The notes: generated by a model not told the origin, from the letters alone. A DNA stretch of 64,000 nt from Haladaptatus paucihalophilus DX253 (GCF_000376445.1 NZ_AQXI01000001.1:1520962-1584961); one strand, 5' to 3'; numbered from the stretch's first letter, positions 4,347-9,954 are shown. Made by a program: numbers and translations.

Positions 4347-4763
4347 TCACAACCGCTTTTCGAACAGCAATCCATCGCCGCCGTCGGCGTAGTAGTCCGG
4401 TTCCCGCCCGCGGCGTTCGAATCCCAGCGACTCGTAGAGCGACCGTGCGACGTCGTTTTCTTCGTGCACCGTCAGCGAAACGCGATCACAACCTCGGTCG
4501 CGGGCCATGTCCGCCGTCGCGCCGAGGAGTCGCGTCGCCCGCCCCTCCCCGCGGTGTGCGGGTTCCACGACGAGTTCGGCGACGTAGGCGTCGTCCGCGA
4601 CCATGGTGAGAACGTAGCCGACCGGCACGCCGTCGGCCGTCGAGACGAGGACCGACCCGACCCCGGAAATCGCCGTTTCGAGGAGTCCCGGCGTCGGTTC
4701 GGGAAGCCACGTCCGAATCCGTTGTAGCCGCGGACGGTCGTCCGGTGTGGCGGGTCGAATCAC
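4347..4763 (-). CDS. GNAT family N-acetyltransferase
   Basis: A 138-residue single GNAT domain. The acetyl-CoA-binding motif A reads VVEPAHRGEGRATRLL (about residues 68-83), preceded by the YVAELVVEP strand. The C-terminal part has the GNAT-typical NDVARSLYESLGFERRG. It should transfer an acetyl group from acetyl-CoA to an amine; the substrate is unknown, and the arrangement resembles RimI-like proteins. It starts with GTG, and the start overlaps the stop of the DUF92 gene by four bases, so it is co-translated with that membrane protein. It converges on dnaG with only three bases between the stops. Confidence 0.85.
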   Translation of the reverse strand: MIRPATPDDRPRLQRIRTWLPEPTPGLLETAISGVGSVLVSTADGVPVGYVLTMVADDAYVAELVVEPAHRGEGRATRLLGATADMARDRGCDRVSLTVHEENDVARSLYESLGFERRGREPDYYADGGDGLLFEKRL

Positions 4764-6076
4764 GCCGCCAGACCCACCAGCAACGCGAGTCCGGCACCGA
4801 GGAGCGCCCCCGAGAGGGTCGCGAGGAAGTTGACGCTCTGGTTGCCGACACCCTCACCTTCGACCGTCGCGCCGAGGAGGCTATCGACCGTCATGCCGCC
4901 GATACCGGCCAGCGCGATGACGGCACCGCCGAGCGGACCGATGGACCCGAACAGCGCGACGGCGATGAGCGCGACGATTGTCGCGCCGGACGCCCCGGCC
5001 ACCTCGCCTTGCCACGTCACGCCGCCGTCGGTTCCGGGTTCGACCGGTTGCCACGTCGTGATGAGTCGCGGATTGTCGAAGACGCCGCCGATTTCGCTCG
5101 ACAGAGTGTCGCTCATTGCGGCCGCGATGCTCCCCGCGAAGGCGAAGAGGAAGACGGCTTCCGAAACGGGAAGCCGGTCGCTGGCGGCGAACGCGAGGAC
5201 GGCGACCAGCGCAACGGCAGCGTTCCCGAGGACGTTGCCGCCGCCGCGCGCGCCCTCGTTGGCTTCCGCGACGCCGTTCTCTCGCTTCTGCTCGTACCTG
5301 AACTTCGTCGACAGTCCCCCCAGCGCGAAAAAGGAGATGAGGACGGCGAACCACGGGTAGCCGCCGAGGACGATGGTGAGCAACGCGAGGAGGATGCCGG
5401 TGAGCATGCCGGTCACGGACGCCGTATCGAGCGCCCACGAGACGTAGCCGAAGCCGACAGTGATGGCGATGGCGAGCACGATGTCGAGCTCCGTGACGGT
5501 CATCGTGAGGTCGGTAAAGAGCCACAGCAGGAGCGCGACGGAGAACATCACCAACGGGTCGTCGCGCTCGAAGAGGACCGACCGAAGTAGCCCGGCCAAC
5601 AGAGCGCCGCTCGCGGCGAGGAAGACGATTTCGGGGATCACCGGTTCGACGGGACTGCCTTGGACGCTTCGGACGAATACCTGTGCGACTGCGGCCGCGA
5701 AGAACCCGCCGACCGTGAACCCGGCCGTCGCGGTGATAGTCGCGTTGCTCCGGATTCTGACGAGCTGTTCCGTCAGATTTCCGTAGGCGAGCAGGCAGAC
5801 GGCGGCGGCGAAGACGCTCGTCGGTAAATCGACGAGCATGACGAGCATGGCGAGTCCGGCGGTCGCAAAGGAGAACGCGGCGAGTCCGCGCAATCGTCCT
5901 TCACTGCGGTCGCTCGGCCGTGCAAAGAGGTCGAACAACGGGCCGTCGTCGATGACGAGCGCGACCGCACCCACCGCGGCGAACAGCGCCGCCACACCCG
6001 CAACCAGCACCGATGCGGCGAGGGATAGCGTGGCGATAGCCGCGAACGCCGCCGCCCGCCGAATGCTCGAAGTCAC
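4760..6076 (-). CDS. DUF92 integral membrane protein (phytyl/polyprenyl-phosphate kinase-like)
   Basis: A 438-residue polytopic membrane protein with about 11 helices. The C-terminal half (about residues 215-430) matches the DUF92/TIGR00297 family, with motifs such as GGLSTKFRYEQKRENGVAEA and a DTLSSEIG stretch. Plant members (VTE6) phosphorylate phytyl phosphate with CTP, and the fold is related to dolichol and phytol kinases. A kinase acting on prenyl alcohols or phosphates is therefore possible but unproved. It starts with GTG at 6076, about 28 bases after a TATA-like box on the minus strand, so it is probably leaderless. It diverges from a cis-prenyltransferase-like gene and overlaps a GNAT gene downstream. 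Confidence 0.82.
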   Translation of the reverse strand: MTSSIRRAAAFAAIATLSLAASVLVAGVAALFAAVGAVALVIDDGPLFDLFARPSDRSEGRLRGLAAFSFATAGLAMLVMLVDLPTSVFAAAVCLLAYGNLTEQLVRIRSNATITATAGFTVGGFFAAAVAQVFVRSVQGSPVEPVIPEIVFLAASGALLAGLLRSVLFERDDPLVMFSVALLLWLFTDLTMTVTELDIVLAIAITVGFGYVSWALDTASVTGMLTGILLALLTIVLGGYPWFAVLISFFALGGLSTKFRYEQKRENGVAEANEGARGGGNVLGNAAVALVAVLAFAASDRLPVSEAVFLFAFAGSIAAAMSDTLSSEIGGVFDNPRLITTWQPVEPGTDGGVTWQGEVAGASGATIVALIAVALFGSIGPLGGAVIALAGIGGMTVDSLLGATVEGEGVGNQSVNFLATLSGALLGAGLALLVGLAA

Positions 6077-6163: not shown

Positions 6164-6772
6164 GTGGGACTTTACGACCAGTACCTCACGGCCCGCGTGC
6201 GACGACACGACGCCGACCCGCCGAGCCACGTCGCCGTCGTCATCACGGAACGCGACCTGCTGGAACAGGGCGCGTACGAGACGCTCGAATCGTTCTTCCA
6301 GTGGGCGTTCGACTACGGGGCAGAACGCATCACGGTCTACGTGAGCGTGCTGGATTCGGGCGCGGTGCCGACCCTCGAACGCGAACTGGAGAACGTCCGC
6401 GCGCCCCGATCCATCGCCGTTCGCGGACCCGACGACCTCACGCCTGCTGACGCGCCGATTCAGATAAGTATCGGACTCGGCGGCAAACACGAGTTCGCCG
6501 AGGCGGTCCGCGCAGTCGCAGAGGACGTGGAGGCCGGGACGGTTTCCGCCGCCGACATCGACGAGTCGGAAATCGAGTCCCGACTGGTCTTCCCGACCGA
6601 CCCCGACCTCGTTATCAAAACCGGTGCGGAGCGCCTCTCTGACTTCATGATCTGGCAGTCGGTGTACTCCGAACTGTACTTCACCGACGTGAACTGGCGC
6701 GATTTCCGCAAACGAGACTATCTGCGCGCGATTTTCGATTACAAGAATCGACAGCGGCGGTTCGGACGGTAG
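6164..6772 (+). CDS. Non-catalytic cis-prenyltransferase homologue (NgBR-like subunit)
   Basis: A 202-residue protein with the fold and C-terminus of undecaprenyl diphosphate synthase but without its active site. Where catalytic members have the DGN motif it reads HVAVVITERDLLEQG (residues 22-36), so the catalytic aspartate is gone. The FS-x-EN segment is also lost. The dimer-interface region near residues 158-180 is intact (LSDFMIWQSVYSELYF), and the protein ends with RRFG followed by Arg, an RxG motif (R199-G201). This split matches eukaryotic NgBR/Nus1, which activates a catalytic partner. The catalytic homologue at 9031-9954 lacks the RxG ending. The role as activating subunit is inference. 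GTG start, leaderless promoter. Confidence 0.82.
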   Translation: MGLYDQYLTARVRRHDADPPSHVAVVITERDLLEQGAYETLESFFQWAFDYGAERITVYVSVLDSGAVPTLERELENVRAPRSIAVRGPDDLTPADAPIQISIGLGGKHEFAEAVRAVAEDVEAGTVSAADIDESEIESRLVFPTDPDLVIKTGAERLSDFMIWQSVYSELYFTDVNWRDFRKRDYLRAIFDYKNRQRRFGR

Positions 6773-6823
6773 CGAACGAGAAAGCGGTCGAGTACCCTCT
6801 ATTTCGACGACTATCCGAACGTA

Positions 6824-6832
6824 TTTATAAAT
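6824..6832 (+). promoter_or_regulatory. TATA box of the small membrane protein gene
   Basis: The box TTTATAAAT is centred about 23 bases before the GTG at 6851. This spacing suits a leaderless transcript and supports the GTG start, which lacks a Shine-Dalgarno sequence. Confidence 0.55.
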
Positions 6833-6850
6833 CAATCCAACAGAACGCAT

Positions 6851-7423
6851 GTGGATAGAACACGACTCGGACGACTCCTCTCGGTGGTACTGGTTCCGCT
6901 CGGCGTCGCCCTCCTGGCCCTTAGCGCGATTACCGACGATATCGTCGGTGCCGTCCTCGGCGCGGGAACCGTCCTTCTCGGGGCCGCGTTCTTCGTGACC
7001 GTGGATCGGTTTTCGGACGTGGAGTTCGACCTGACCGAAACGCCCTCGGTCGTAGTGAACGTCGTGCAACTGGGTGGGGTGCTCATCGTCTTCGCCCTCC
7101 TCGCATACCTGCTGAGCGATGTGGAAAGCGTGACACGGGTGTTCGACGCCGGACCCCCGTCGCCGACGTACCCCGCATACGTGGGAATCGCGATGGGTGT
7201 GCTCCTCGGCGGCGTCGTTCCCTTCCTCACACAGCAGTTAGAAGATAGACGGACACGACTGAGCGATTCGGTCCGCGTCAGGACGGTCGGGTTTTCGTTC
7301 ACCTTCGGAACGTACGCGATTTTACTGCTCTATCAGCCGTCGTCGAGCGCGCTGTACGCGACCGCGTACCTTTGCAGTCGAATCTGTGTTCTCGTCGGCG
7401 TATACGCTTCTTCGCGGCTCTAA
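6851..7423 (+). CDS. Haloarchaeal membrane protein of unknown function
   Basis: A 190-residue protein with about six hydrophobic helices: residues 9-27, 31-50, 66-87, 110-130, 146-160 and 168-186. A short acidic loop between helices 2 and 3 contains DVEFDLTET. I recognise no family or catalytic motif. The GTG start is supported by a well-placed TATA box and by the first helix beginning nine residues later. It lies between the cis-prenyltransferase-like gene and a beta-helix lipoprotein and overlaps neither in a way that suggests coupling. Confidence 0.65.
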   Translation: MDRTRLGRLLSVVLVPLGVALLALSAITDDIVGAVLGAGTVLLGAAFFVTVDRFSDVEFDLTETPSVVVNVVQLGGVLIVFALLAYLLSDVESVTRVFDAGPPSPTYPAYVGIAMGVLLGGVVPFLTQQLEDRRTRLSDSVRVRTVGFSFTFGTYAILLLYQPSSSALYATAYLCSRICVLVGVYASSRL

Positions 7424-7647
7424 CGGCTATGTACGACGGGCGGGGGGAGCTCGTCCGACCGTTTCGACCGTCGGTGCGACTTCGAATCACGAGAATCGAC
7501 AACGGCGATTCGGGCGGTAGGGTCACTCAGGCCGACGGGGCACCTCAGATTTTGGCGTTGCAGGGTCCGCTTATATTCCCGACAGCTTCGTCCGCATCCG
7601 TTACGTCCCCAATTCTCAAATGGAATCCGACGGTCAAACCGACTGGG

Positions 7648-9021
7648 ATGGGGACTCCGAGCGACGGGACGAGGAGACGAGCGTATCTCCGAGCGGCCGG
7701 TGTCGCGCTCTCGACGGCGGTTGCGGGCTGTGGCGGACGGTCTCCCCCGAGCAAGGAGTCCGTCGTGGGTCCGTACCGCGACCGATTCGAGGCGGTCATC
7801 GACGTCGGTGAACTGGGCGCGGACGGGACTGGAACCGAGCCAGTCGATGACGTCCTGAACCGGTCGATGCGCGACGGCGCGCTGTTCTACTTTCCGCCCG
7901 GAACGTATCGACTCACGGAGCTCGACCTTTCCGGCCGCTCGAACTGTGGGTTCGTCGGCAACGACGCCACGCTGCTCGTTCCACCGGAAGAGCAGGGGAA
8001 CTGGATCTACGGCGAGCGGGTTCGGAACCTCCTGTTCGACGGGTTCACGTTCGACTACGCGGACCCCGCGGCGGCCCCAGTCGTCGCGTTCTCCGTCGCG
8101 GGGAAGCGAAACGTCCTCCGGGACCTCGCGTTCGAGGGGCACCACGGGACGACCCCGCGGAGCGGTCTCGAACTCGAAGTTCCGAAGCGCGCCGCGTCGC
8201 TGCTCGTCGAGCGCGTCCGCATGCGTGGCGGGTCGAAGAAGGGAAACGCCATCTTCACTCACAGCGGCGACGGGTCGCTTCAGTTCGTCGATTGTCGGGT
8301 CGAACACTGGGCGGAAGGGCTGTACGCGTCACCGCACTCCGGCCCGCTCCTCGTGCGGGGCGGAACGTACGCGAACAACGGCATCGACCAGATACGCATC
8401 GGCGGCGGGACGAGCGGCGCGCGGGTCGAAGGCGCAACCGTCCGTATCGACGGCCCGCGGAACCCGGAGGTGAAGCCGAACATGCGGGGAATCTGGTTGG
8501 AAGAAGGGACGAACGCGAGGGTGGACAACTGTACCGTCGAGATTACGGACCTGACGGGCACGTACAGCTCCGGGGGAATCGTCGTCGAAAAGCAGTTCGG
8601 GACCGCCCGAATCACGAACACCGCGATTCAGACTAACCACAGCGTTCCGGCCATTCACGTCCGGACGCCGACCACCGAATACGACCCGACCACGATGCCG
8701 AGCATGGACCACCTTCCGGCGAACCACGAAGTTACCTGTGAGAACGTCTCGATTTACGGTGCCGCCCCGAAGGGGACCGCCATCCTGCTCGCGGGACGGG
8801 ACGGATGCCGATTGTCGGACGTCACCGTTCAACACCATTTCGGCAGTCGAGACGGCATCACCATCGAGAGCGGCCGACGGACGGAGATTCACGACGCGCA
8901 CCTCCGGGTGAGCGGCACCCCAATCGTCGCGTCAGGGACGACGCCGCTAACGAAGAACGTCGAGACGGGTGGAATCGGTTCGCTGAGACGGTTGGGCGAC
9001 TCGTTGTTGGACTCGATGTAG
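7648..9021 (+). CDS. Tat-exported lipoprotein with right-handed beta-helix (pectate lyase-like) fold
   Basis: A 457-residue predicted surface lipoprotein. The N-terminus carries a twin-arginine signal (TRRRAYLRAAG) and a lipobox ending in AGC, so it should be exported folded and anchored by a lipid. The rest is a run of short beta-strand repeats typical of parallel beta helices: PPGTYRLTELDLSGRSNC near residue 85, then repeated NCTVEITD-, ENVSIYGA- and LSDVTVQHH-like coils. Such folds bind or cleave polysaccharides; no catalytic residues can be named here. The frame is open upstream to 7372, but the ATG at 7648 gives a normal 8-residue n-region before the arginines. The stop is 9 bases before the convergent uppS stop. 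Confidence 0.75.
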   Translation: MGTPSDGTRRRAYLRAAGVALSTAVAGCGGRSPPSKESVVGPYRDRFEAVIDVGELGADGTGTEPVDDVLNRSMRDGALFYFPPGTYRLTELDLSGRSNCGFVGNDATLLVPPEEQGNWIYGERVRNLLFDGFTFDYADPAAAPVVAFSVAGKRNVLRDLAFEGHHGTTPRSGLELEVPKRAASLLVERVRMRGGSKKGNAIFTHSGDGSLQFVDCRVEHWAEGLYASPHSGPLLVRGGTYANNGIDQIRIGGGTSGARVEGATVRIDGPRNPEVKPNMRGIWLEEGTNARVDNCTVEITDLTGTYSSGGIVVEKQFGTARITNTAIQTNHSVPAIHVRTPTTEYDPTTMPSMDHLPANHEVTCENVSIYGAAPKGTAILLAGRDGCRLSDVTVQHHFGSRDGITIESGRRTEIHDAHLRVSGTPIVASGTTPLTKNVETGGIGSLRRLGDSLLDSM

Positions 9022-9030
9022 AAAGCAGTC

Positions 9031-9954
9031 TTATTTGGTCGTTTGGCGTTCGTCGCCGCCCTCTATCTCCTCGACCGTCGCACTGTCGGGGACGTACTCG
9101 GCGAACTTGTGCAAGACGGAGCGTGCTTCGTCCAACTCCACGCCGCCGACGGCACGGACGAGCGCCAGCGCGCGCTGGACTTTCGCCTGCCTGAACGATT
9201 GTGCGCGCGACTCGTAGGTTCTGACCGCCCGGAGGAAGTCGATTTTGGAGAACTCGGGCCAGTAGGGCGTACAGAAGAACACGGCGGCCTCGTTGCCGTT
9301 CGCGTGCCACGGCAGGAAGTTACTGGTCCGCTCGTCGCCGCCGGTGCGGATGATGAGGTCCACGTCGCGGAGCGGTCGGGCGTAGAGGCGCGACTCGATG
9401 GTTTCGACGGAGATATCGGCCGGGTCGAGGTTGCCCGACTCGACTTCGCGGGCCACGTCGCGCGCCGCGCCGAGGAGTTCGTTTCTGCCGCCGTAAGCGA
9501 GCGCGATGTTGAGGACGAAGTTGTCGTAGTCGCCGGTTTGCCGCTCGGCGTAGTCGATTGCCTCCCTGACGCGGGGCGGAAGTTGTTGGACGTCGCCGAT
9601 AGCGCGGATGCAGACGCCGCTGTCGTGGACGCGCTCGGCGTCGGCGAACTCGTACAGTTTGTTTTCGAGCAGGTCGAACAGGGCCTCGCGTTCGTGGTCG
9701 GGGCGCTCGAAGTTCTCGGTGGAGAAGGTGTACAGCGTCAGTTCCTCGACGCCGATTTCGTCGCACCAGTCGAGGACGCGCTCGGTCGTCTTCGCCCCTT
9801 CGCGGTGCCCGTCGGACGCTTCCCCGCCCTGTTTGCTGGCGTAGCGTCGGTTGCCGTCCTGAATGACCGCGACGTGCGCGGGTGCGCCCGAGACGCTTCG
9901 CCGTAACTGCCGCTCGTAGGCCGTTTCCAGTTGTCGCCGAACCCACCTCAACAT
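9031..9954 (-). CDS. uppS: cis-prenyltransferase, catalytic (undecaprenyl diphosphate synthase family)
   Basis: A 307-residue enzyme that condenses isopentenyl diphosphate units in cis onto an allylic primer, making the long polyprenyl carrier used for S-layer glycosylation. The active-site motif HVAVIQDGNRRYASKQG (D33) and the LYTFSTENFERP segment (about residues 74-85) are present, as is an IRTGGDERTSNFLPW motif. However, the segment after it is unlike classical UppS: it reads HANGNEAAVFF where bacterial enzymes have a WQ-x-x-Y-x-E-L-Y-F pattern. There is also no RxG ending; the chain continues with an extra 60 residues. The ATG at 9954 is preferred to 9972. A motif-complementary paralogue lies 2.3 kb away. 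Confidence 0.9.
   Translation of the reverse strand: MLRWVRRQLETAYERQLRRSVSGAPAHVAVIQDGNRRYASKQGGEASDGHREGAKTTERVLDWCDEIGVEELTLYTFSTENFERPDHEREALFDLLENKLYEFADAERVHDSGVCIRAIGDVQQLPPRVREAIDYAERQTGDYDNFVLNIALAYGGRNELLGAARDVAREVESGNLDPADISVETIESRLYARPLRDVDLIIRTGGDERTSNFLPWHANGNEAAVFFCTPYWPEFSKIDFLRAVRTYESRAQSFRQAKVQRALALVRAVGGVELDEARSVLHKFAEYVPDSATVEEIEGGDERQTTK

Follow-up and report, generated by a model that had tools for sequence, protein, structure and literature searches.

Two genes encoding proteins with homology to cis-prenyltransferases (PF01255), here called A and B, were identified in a 64,000-nucleotide stretch of the genome of Haladaptatus paucihalophilus DX253 (the window, meaning the whole stretch of DNA that was analysed). 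A whole-genome search found no PF01255 genes other than these two. In the window they are separated by about 2.3 kb, and a gene encoding a DUF92 membrane protein lies on the other side of A. The features are listed in Table 1.

Table 1. Genes and sequence motifs at the cis-prenyltransferase locus (positions counted from the first nucleotide of the window)
Feature	Coordinates	Strand	Basis
Gene of a DUF92 (PF01940) membrane protein, next to A in divergent orientation	4760..6076	-	PF01940, E=3.1e-56
Protein A, 202 aa, GTG start; putative non-catalytic NgBR-like cis-prenyltransferase subunit	6164..6772	+	PF01255
T28-E29-R30 of protein A, at the catalytic DGN site	6245..6253	+	alignment to E. coli UppS
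WQSVYSELYF block of protein A, W164-Q-S-V-Y-S-E170-L-Y-F173	6653..6682	+	E170 = E. coli E213 equivalent
RxG motif of protein A, R199-F200-G201	6758..6766	+	RR[FY]G in 69/69 A-type sequences
Protein B, 307 aa, ATG start; putative catalytic DHDDS-like cis-prenyltransferase subunit	9031..9954	-	PF01255
C-terminal extension of protein B past the site of the lost RxG	9034..9192	-	about 50 residues
Remodelled block WHANGNEAAVFF of protein B, W216-H-A-N-G-N-E-A-A-V-F-F227, with a 2-residue insertion	9274..9309	-	sequence
FSTEN of protein B, F77-S-T-E-N81	9712..9726	-	sequence
Catalytic DGN of protein B, D33-G34-N35	9850..9858	-	sequence; DGN in 85/85 B-type sequences with the column

The PF01255 match of protein A covers the second half of the profile only (positions 117-219, E=6.7e-28, above the cut-off). 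The place of D26-G27-N28 of E. coli UppS is taken in A by T28-E29-R30, the FSxEN segment is absent and the protein ends in NRQRRFGR. Protein B matches profile positions 1-218 (E=3.8e-69, above the cut-off), the match ending at its residue 254. In addition to the DGN and FSTEN motifs it holds the further catalytic residues R203, R209 and S211, and it has no RxG motif. A reading of the sequence alone had described the two proteins in these terms, A having lost DGN and FSxEN and retained the WQ block and RRFG, B having kept DGN and STEN without RxG, and had proposed that they divide the motifs of one enzyme reciprocally.

This proposal is borne out by an alignment in which E. coli UppS, human DHDDS and human NgBR served as references for 69 sequences of type A, 86 of type B and 27 archaeal single-copy enzymes. 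PDB 6w2l_B was used to check the NgBR reference; those of E. coli UppS and human DHDDS match the published stretches compared. RR[FY]G is present in all 69 A-type sequences and DGN in none of them. The B-type sequences have DGN wherever that column is present (85/85) and FSxEN throughout (86/86), and the equivalents of S71, E73, N74 and R77 are likewise found in 86/86. RRFG is missing from 85 of the 86; the exception, L068 (genome G215), is the sole B-type sequence with an RRFGG end, and its genome has a second PF01255 gene. In the single-copy archaeal enzymes DGN, FSxEN and an RRFG-like end stand together on one chain (27/27). The motif split between A and B is thus real and not a matter of chance.

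The column of E. coli E213 is divided in the same manner. Glu occupies it in 27/27 single-copy enzymes and 69/69 A-type sequences, whereas nearly all B-type sequences have Ala, Val, Ile or Leu; of the human proteins, NgBR has Glu and DHDDS has Cys. Therefore both the Glu and the RxG go with the non-catalytic subunit in the archaeal and in the eukaryotic lineage. W164, Q165, Y168, E170 and F173 of A are invariant across the phylum Halobacteriota. The WQxxYxELYF block that contains them had been taken for the dimer interface, which has to be corrected: it is a conserved family block around this Glu, and the interface of the human complex lies elsewhere, between alpha5, alpha6 and the betaE-betaF linker of DHDDS and alpha4, alpha5 and the betaD-betaE linker of NgBR (PMC7573591). 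In the literature searched we found no statement on a structural role of E213 or of the Glu in trans.

The same block had been regarded as lost from B. It is indeed altered, but haloarchaeal B retains a Glu inside a version that is two residues longer, so that the block is better described as remodelled than as simply missing. In B of some other Halobacteriota (e.g. WQTANSVAYF) the Glu is wholly absent from the block. A single-sequence structure prediction of protein B was too poor for use (pLDDT 44.9, pTM 0.35).

The homodimeric UppS of bacteria and other archaea belongs to PF01255, has the same catalytic residues as B and the same RxG and ELYF block as A, and differs in that a single chain carries every motif. 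DGN, FSxEN and RxG are found together in neither A nor B. What is found instead is the composition expected of a heteromeric enzyme, with two homologous PF01255 subunits, one with DGN and one without, and with the RxG on the non-catalytic subunit (69/69 A) and missing from the catalytic one (85/86 B).

The eukaryotic enzyme formed by NgBR (NUS1) and DHDDS (Rer2) is built in this way. In the PDB, human DHDDS is the top hit of the B profile (E=5.8e-61). The A profile can be aligned with human NUS1 through positions 12-205 of the profile, nearly its whole length (hhalign probability 96.7, E=3.6e-10 against NgBR). Like B, DHDDS has DGN and a C-terminal extension and lacks RxG; like A, NgBR has RxG and a diverged first half. 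Nevertheless NgBR has a long N-terminal membrane part, for which A with its 202 residues is too short, and the products expected of the haloarchaeal pair are shorter than those of the eukaryotic complex. In the human cis-prenyltransferase the RxG-bearing C-terminus of NgBR crosses the interface into the active site of DHDDS, and a DHDDS homodimer could not form the full network, since its C-terminal helices are not compatible with it (PMC7573591).

A closer case is that of Methanosarcina mazei, for which a heteromeric cis-prenyltransferase composed of MM_0618 and MM_1083 and yielding C45-50 products has been reported (Emi 2019, as cited in PMC8131916); this is the methanogen heteromer that the sequence-only reading had mentioned, and, on the account given there, it exists. 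A Methanosarcina genome (G256) contains three PF01255 genes, of which L269 falls in the A clade and L271 in the B clade, while L270 resembles MM_0014 as described, with DIPKFK at its start and TLGG at its end. This leaves L269 and L271 as the probable orthologues of MM_0618 and MM_1083, an assignment by exclusion that depends on L270. The M. mazei system thus has in common with the haloarchaeal pair the phylum, the two homologous subunits and the two clades into which Methanosarcina A and B fall, and differs in the third, MM_0014-like paralogue, which the genome of the window does not have.

We consider it very likely that A and B combine, as its two subunits, into one heteromeric cis-prenyltransferase, in which the RxG tail of A would complete the active site of B. 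B would bind the allylic primer and isopentenyl diphosphate, with catalysis by its DGN, FSTEN and R/R/S residues. A would have lost the catalytic half while retaining the dimer fold together with the RxG tail at its C-terminus; this tail would cross the dimer interface to reach the active site of B. The Glu of A probably also completes this site, a role in trans suggested by the distribution of the Glu. No other cis-prenyltransferase is encoded in the genome, and the polyprenyl diphosphate from which the dolichol-phosphate glycan carrier is formed should therefore be the product of this pair. Haloarchaeal dolichols are C55-60, somewhat longer than the C45-50 products reported for the M. mazei pair. 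The motif split and its conservation, the co-occurrence and pairing of the genes and the clade membership were observed directly, and from them we infer that the haloarchaeal proteins bind each other, are active together and make this product.

Protein B retains every catalytic residue tested, and this would also suit a self-sufficient homodimer with a C-terminal extension in place of the RxG tail, A being then a pseudoenzyme with a regulatory function only. MM_0014 of M. mazei does function as a homodimer without RxG (PMC8131916), and the A and B genes are convergent, hence separately transcribed. In addition, human DHDDS alone has some activity, approximately 400-fold below that of the complex (PMC7573591), so that B alone might be active too. 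We nevertheless regard a homodimeric B as very unlikely. The RxG and E170 are invariant in A throughout the phylum, which fits a part of an active site and not a loose regulator. Moreover the extension, although present in haloarchaeal and Methanosarcina B, is short in some other Halobacteriota, with only a few residues beyond the point where RxG is lost, which leaves no replacement tail, and MM_0618 and MM_1083 are described, in the report cited in PMC8131916, as a heteromer.

The arrangement of the two genes is conserved. In 90 of the 116 haloarchaeal genomes A and B are at most 8.2 kb apart on one contig, and in all 90 they lie tail to tail. Among the 49 loci with both genes from haloarchaea and other classes, which were chosen because A and B fall within one short stretch, the pair is convergent in 49/49 and the stop codons are less than 50 bp apart in 25. 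Being convergent, A and B are not co-transcribed from one promoter.

In the window the space between A and B (6851-9021, plus strand) is occupied by two genes, one for a membrane protein of 190 aa without a Pfam match and one for a right-handed beta-helix protein. No relatives of these two proteins were found beside A in the 65 other A loci examined, which suggests that a lineage-specific insertion has separated a convergent pair that is otherwise conserved.

The DUF92 gene adjoins A divergently in 30/30 haloarchaeal A loci sampled and is also next to A in some other Halobacteriota. A link between uppS and DUF92 has been reported, with DUF92 predicted to act in a step of the isoprenoid pathway that needs kinase activity (PMC5898192), and the DUF92 protein is a probable isoprenoid-pathway kinase. 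This context could indicate that A works chiefly with the neighbouring membrane kinase, acting on polyprenol or prenyl phosphate, rather than with B. However, in several Halobacteriota that have B (e.g. L337-L344) no DUF92 relative was found beside A, and the retained RxG and E213 equivalent make sense only beside a cis-prenyltransferase active site. A primary partnership with DUF92 is therefore highly improbable; it is, in any case, not mutually exclusive with an A-B heteromer.

Copy numbers were compared across archaeal phyla. Among 116 haloarchaeal genomes, each at least 95% complete, A was found in 116 and B in 115, the genome without B (G072) being assembled in about 120 contigs. In the Halobacteriota as a whole, PF01255 genes are present in 145/147 genomes and at least two of them in each of these 145. 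A search with the A profile gave both an A-type and a B-type match in 60/60 Halobacteriota genomes, the A-type match of G132 being short and doubtful. The two genomes with no PF01255 gene, G122 and G130, belong to the same genus (g53) and are about 91% complete, and this may be an assembly gap or a true loss. One haloarchaeon has a third, diverged cis-prenyltransferase (L285, G002:C1:478925-479599; profile 1-216, E=2e-29), in which DGH replaces DGN.

The sequence-only reading had held that the two genes should co-occur in related genomes, and they do. Inside the Halobacteriota, where almost every genome has each of the two genes, such co-occurrence is by itself of little weight, and the informative part of the distribution is the contrast between phyla. 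Other phyla have mostly one full-length gene (named panel of 40 genomes), and their few second copies are mostly near full length or broken. The phylum of Methanocaldococcus has a single gene in 27/27; PF01255 matches were obtained in 61/61 Thermoproteota, 59/61 Thermoplasmatota and 56/59 Asgard genomes, the Asgard match being nearly always a single full-length enzyme with RxG. No half-type gene of the A kind was found in the 56 Asgard genomes with a match, nor was any half-type gene found in the other archaeal phyla sampled. Since archaea of the other phyla mostly have a single enzyme that carries all motifs, the split is a trait of the Halobacteriota. No relatives were found in a search of viral contigs.

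Degenerate copies of other kinds were observed outside this phylum. In three Asgard genomes of the Lokiarchaeota type (L272, L326 and L327 of G238, G321 and G307) DGN is lost (LLNVNRRW or TVNRRW) whereas LSLEN and the RRxGK end are retained, and in G321 the copy without DGN stands alongside a normal one, L325. These cis-prenyltransferases are possibly another independent pseudo-subunit. The paralogues L274 and L275 of Woesearchaeota have a degenerate DGN site and no RxG, and G264 also has a normal copy.

Trees were built from 115 alignment columns that cover the second half of the protein. With the long human branches left out, A forms one clade (100/99) and B another (100/93), and a single duplication giving an A+B clade is not rejected (p-AU 0.53). 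When the human sequences were included, NgBR came to lie within A, with an end branch of length 9.28, and DHDDS next to a single thaumarchaeal sequence. We took these placements as a long-branch artefact, the branches being long and the positions unstable, and because of those branches NgBR and DHDDS cannot be placed in the tree.

The analogy with NgBR and DHDDS drawn in the sequence-only reading stands for the motifs and the mechanism (PMC7573591), and common descent is not supported: Asgard archaea have nearly always the single RxG enzyme, so the split in archaea and that in eukaryotes probably arose independently. A descent of both pairs from one ancient heteromer, which concerns the origin and not the function of the archaeal enzyme, would explain that A aligns end to end with NgBR and that the two share an ITE string at the DGN position and a Lys at that of R194. 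We consider it unlikely, since no half-type gene was found in the 56 Asgard genomes with a match or in the other archaeal phyla sampled, A scores better against homodimeric UppS than against NgBR, and the human sequences are long-branched and unstable in the tree. In our opinion the heteromer probably arose once, in the stem of the Halobacteriota and independently of eukaryotes, by duplication and reciprocal loss, of DGN in one copy and of RxG in the other. It would then have been kept throughout the phylum, haloarchaea included, usually as an abutting convergent pair, and would make carriers of about C45-60, so that heteromery would not be tied to very long products.

We found no paper on a haloarchaeal heteromeric cis-prenyltransferase, nor any biochemistry of the pair from haloarchaea, in the literature searched, which covered few subscription papers; those beyond it, Emi 2019 among them, may discuss one. 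The M. mazei heteromer had already been reported, and what is added here is the spread of the split through the phylum, the conservation of the convergent gene pair and a likely origin independent of the eukaryotic case.

If our interpretation is correct, two genes together would encode the enzyme that supplies haloarchaeal N-glycosylation with its dolichol carrier, and a gene without catalytic residues, easily named a synthase by homology, would become a needed partner. The Halobacteriota would represent a second, apparently independent division of labour of the NgBR/DHDDS type, in a phylum that offers short subunits and genetic systems (Haloferax, Methanosarcina) for asking why a homodimer becomes a heteromer. 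Moreover the rule that heteromeric enzymes make chains longer than C70 would be weakened.
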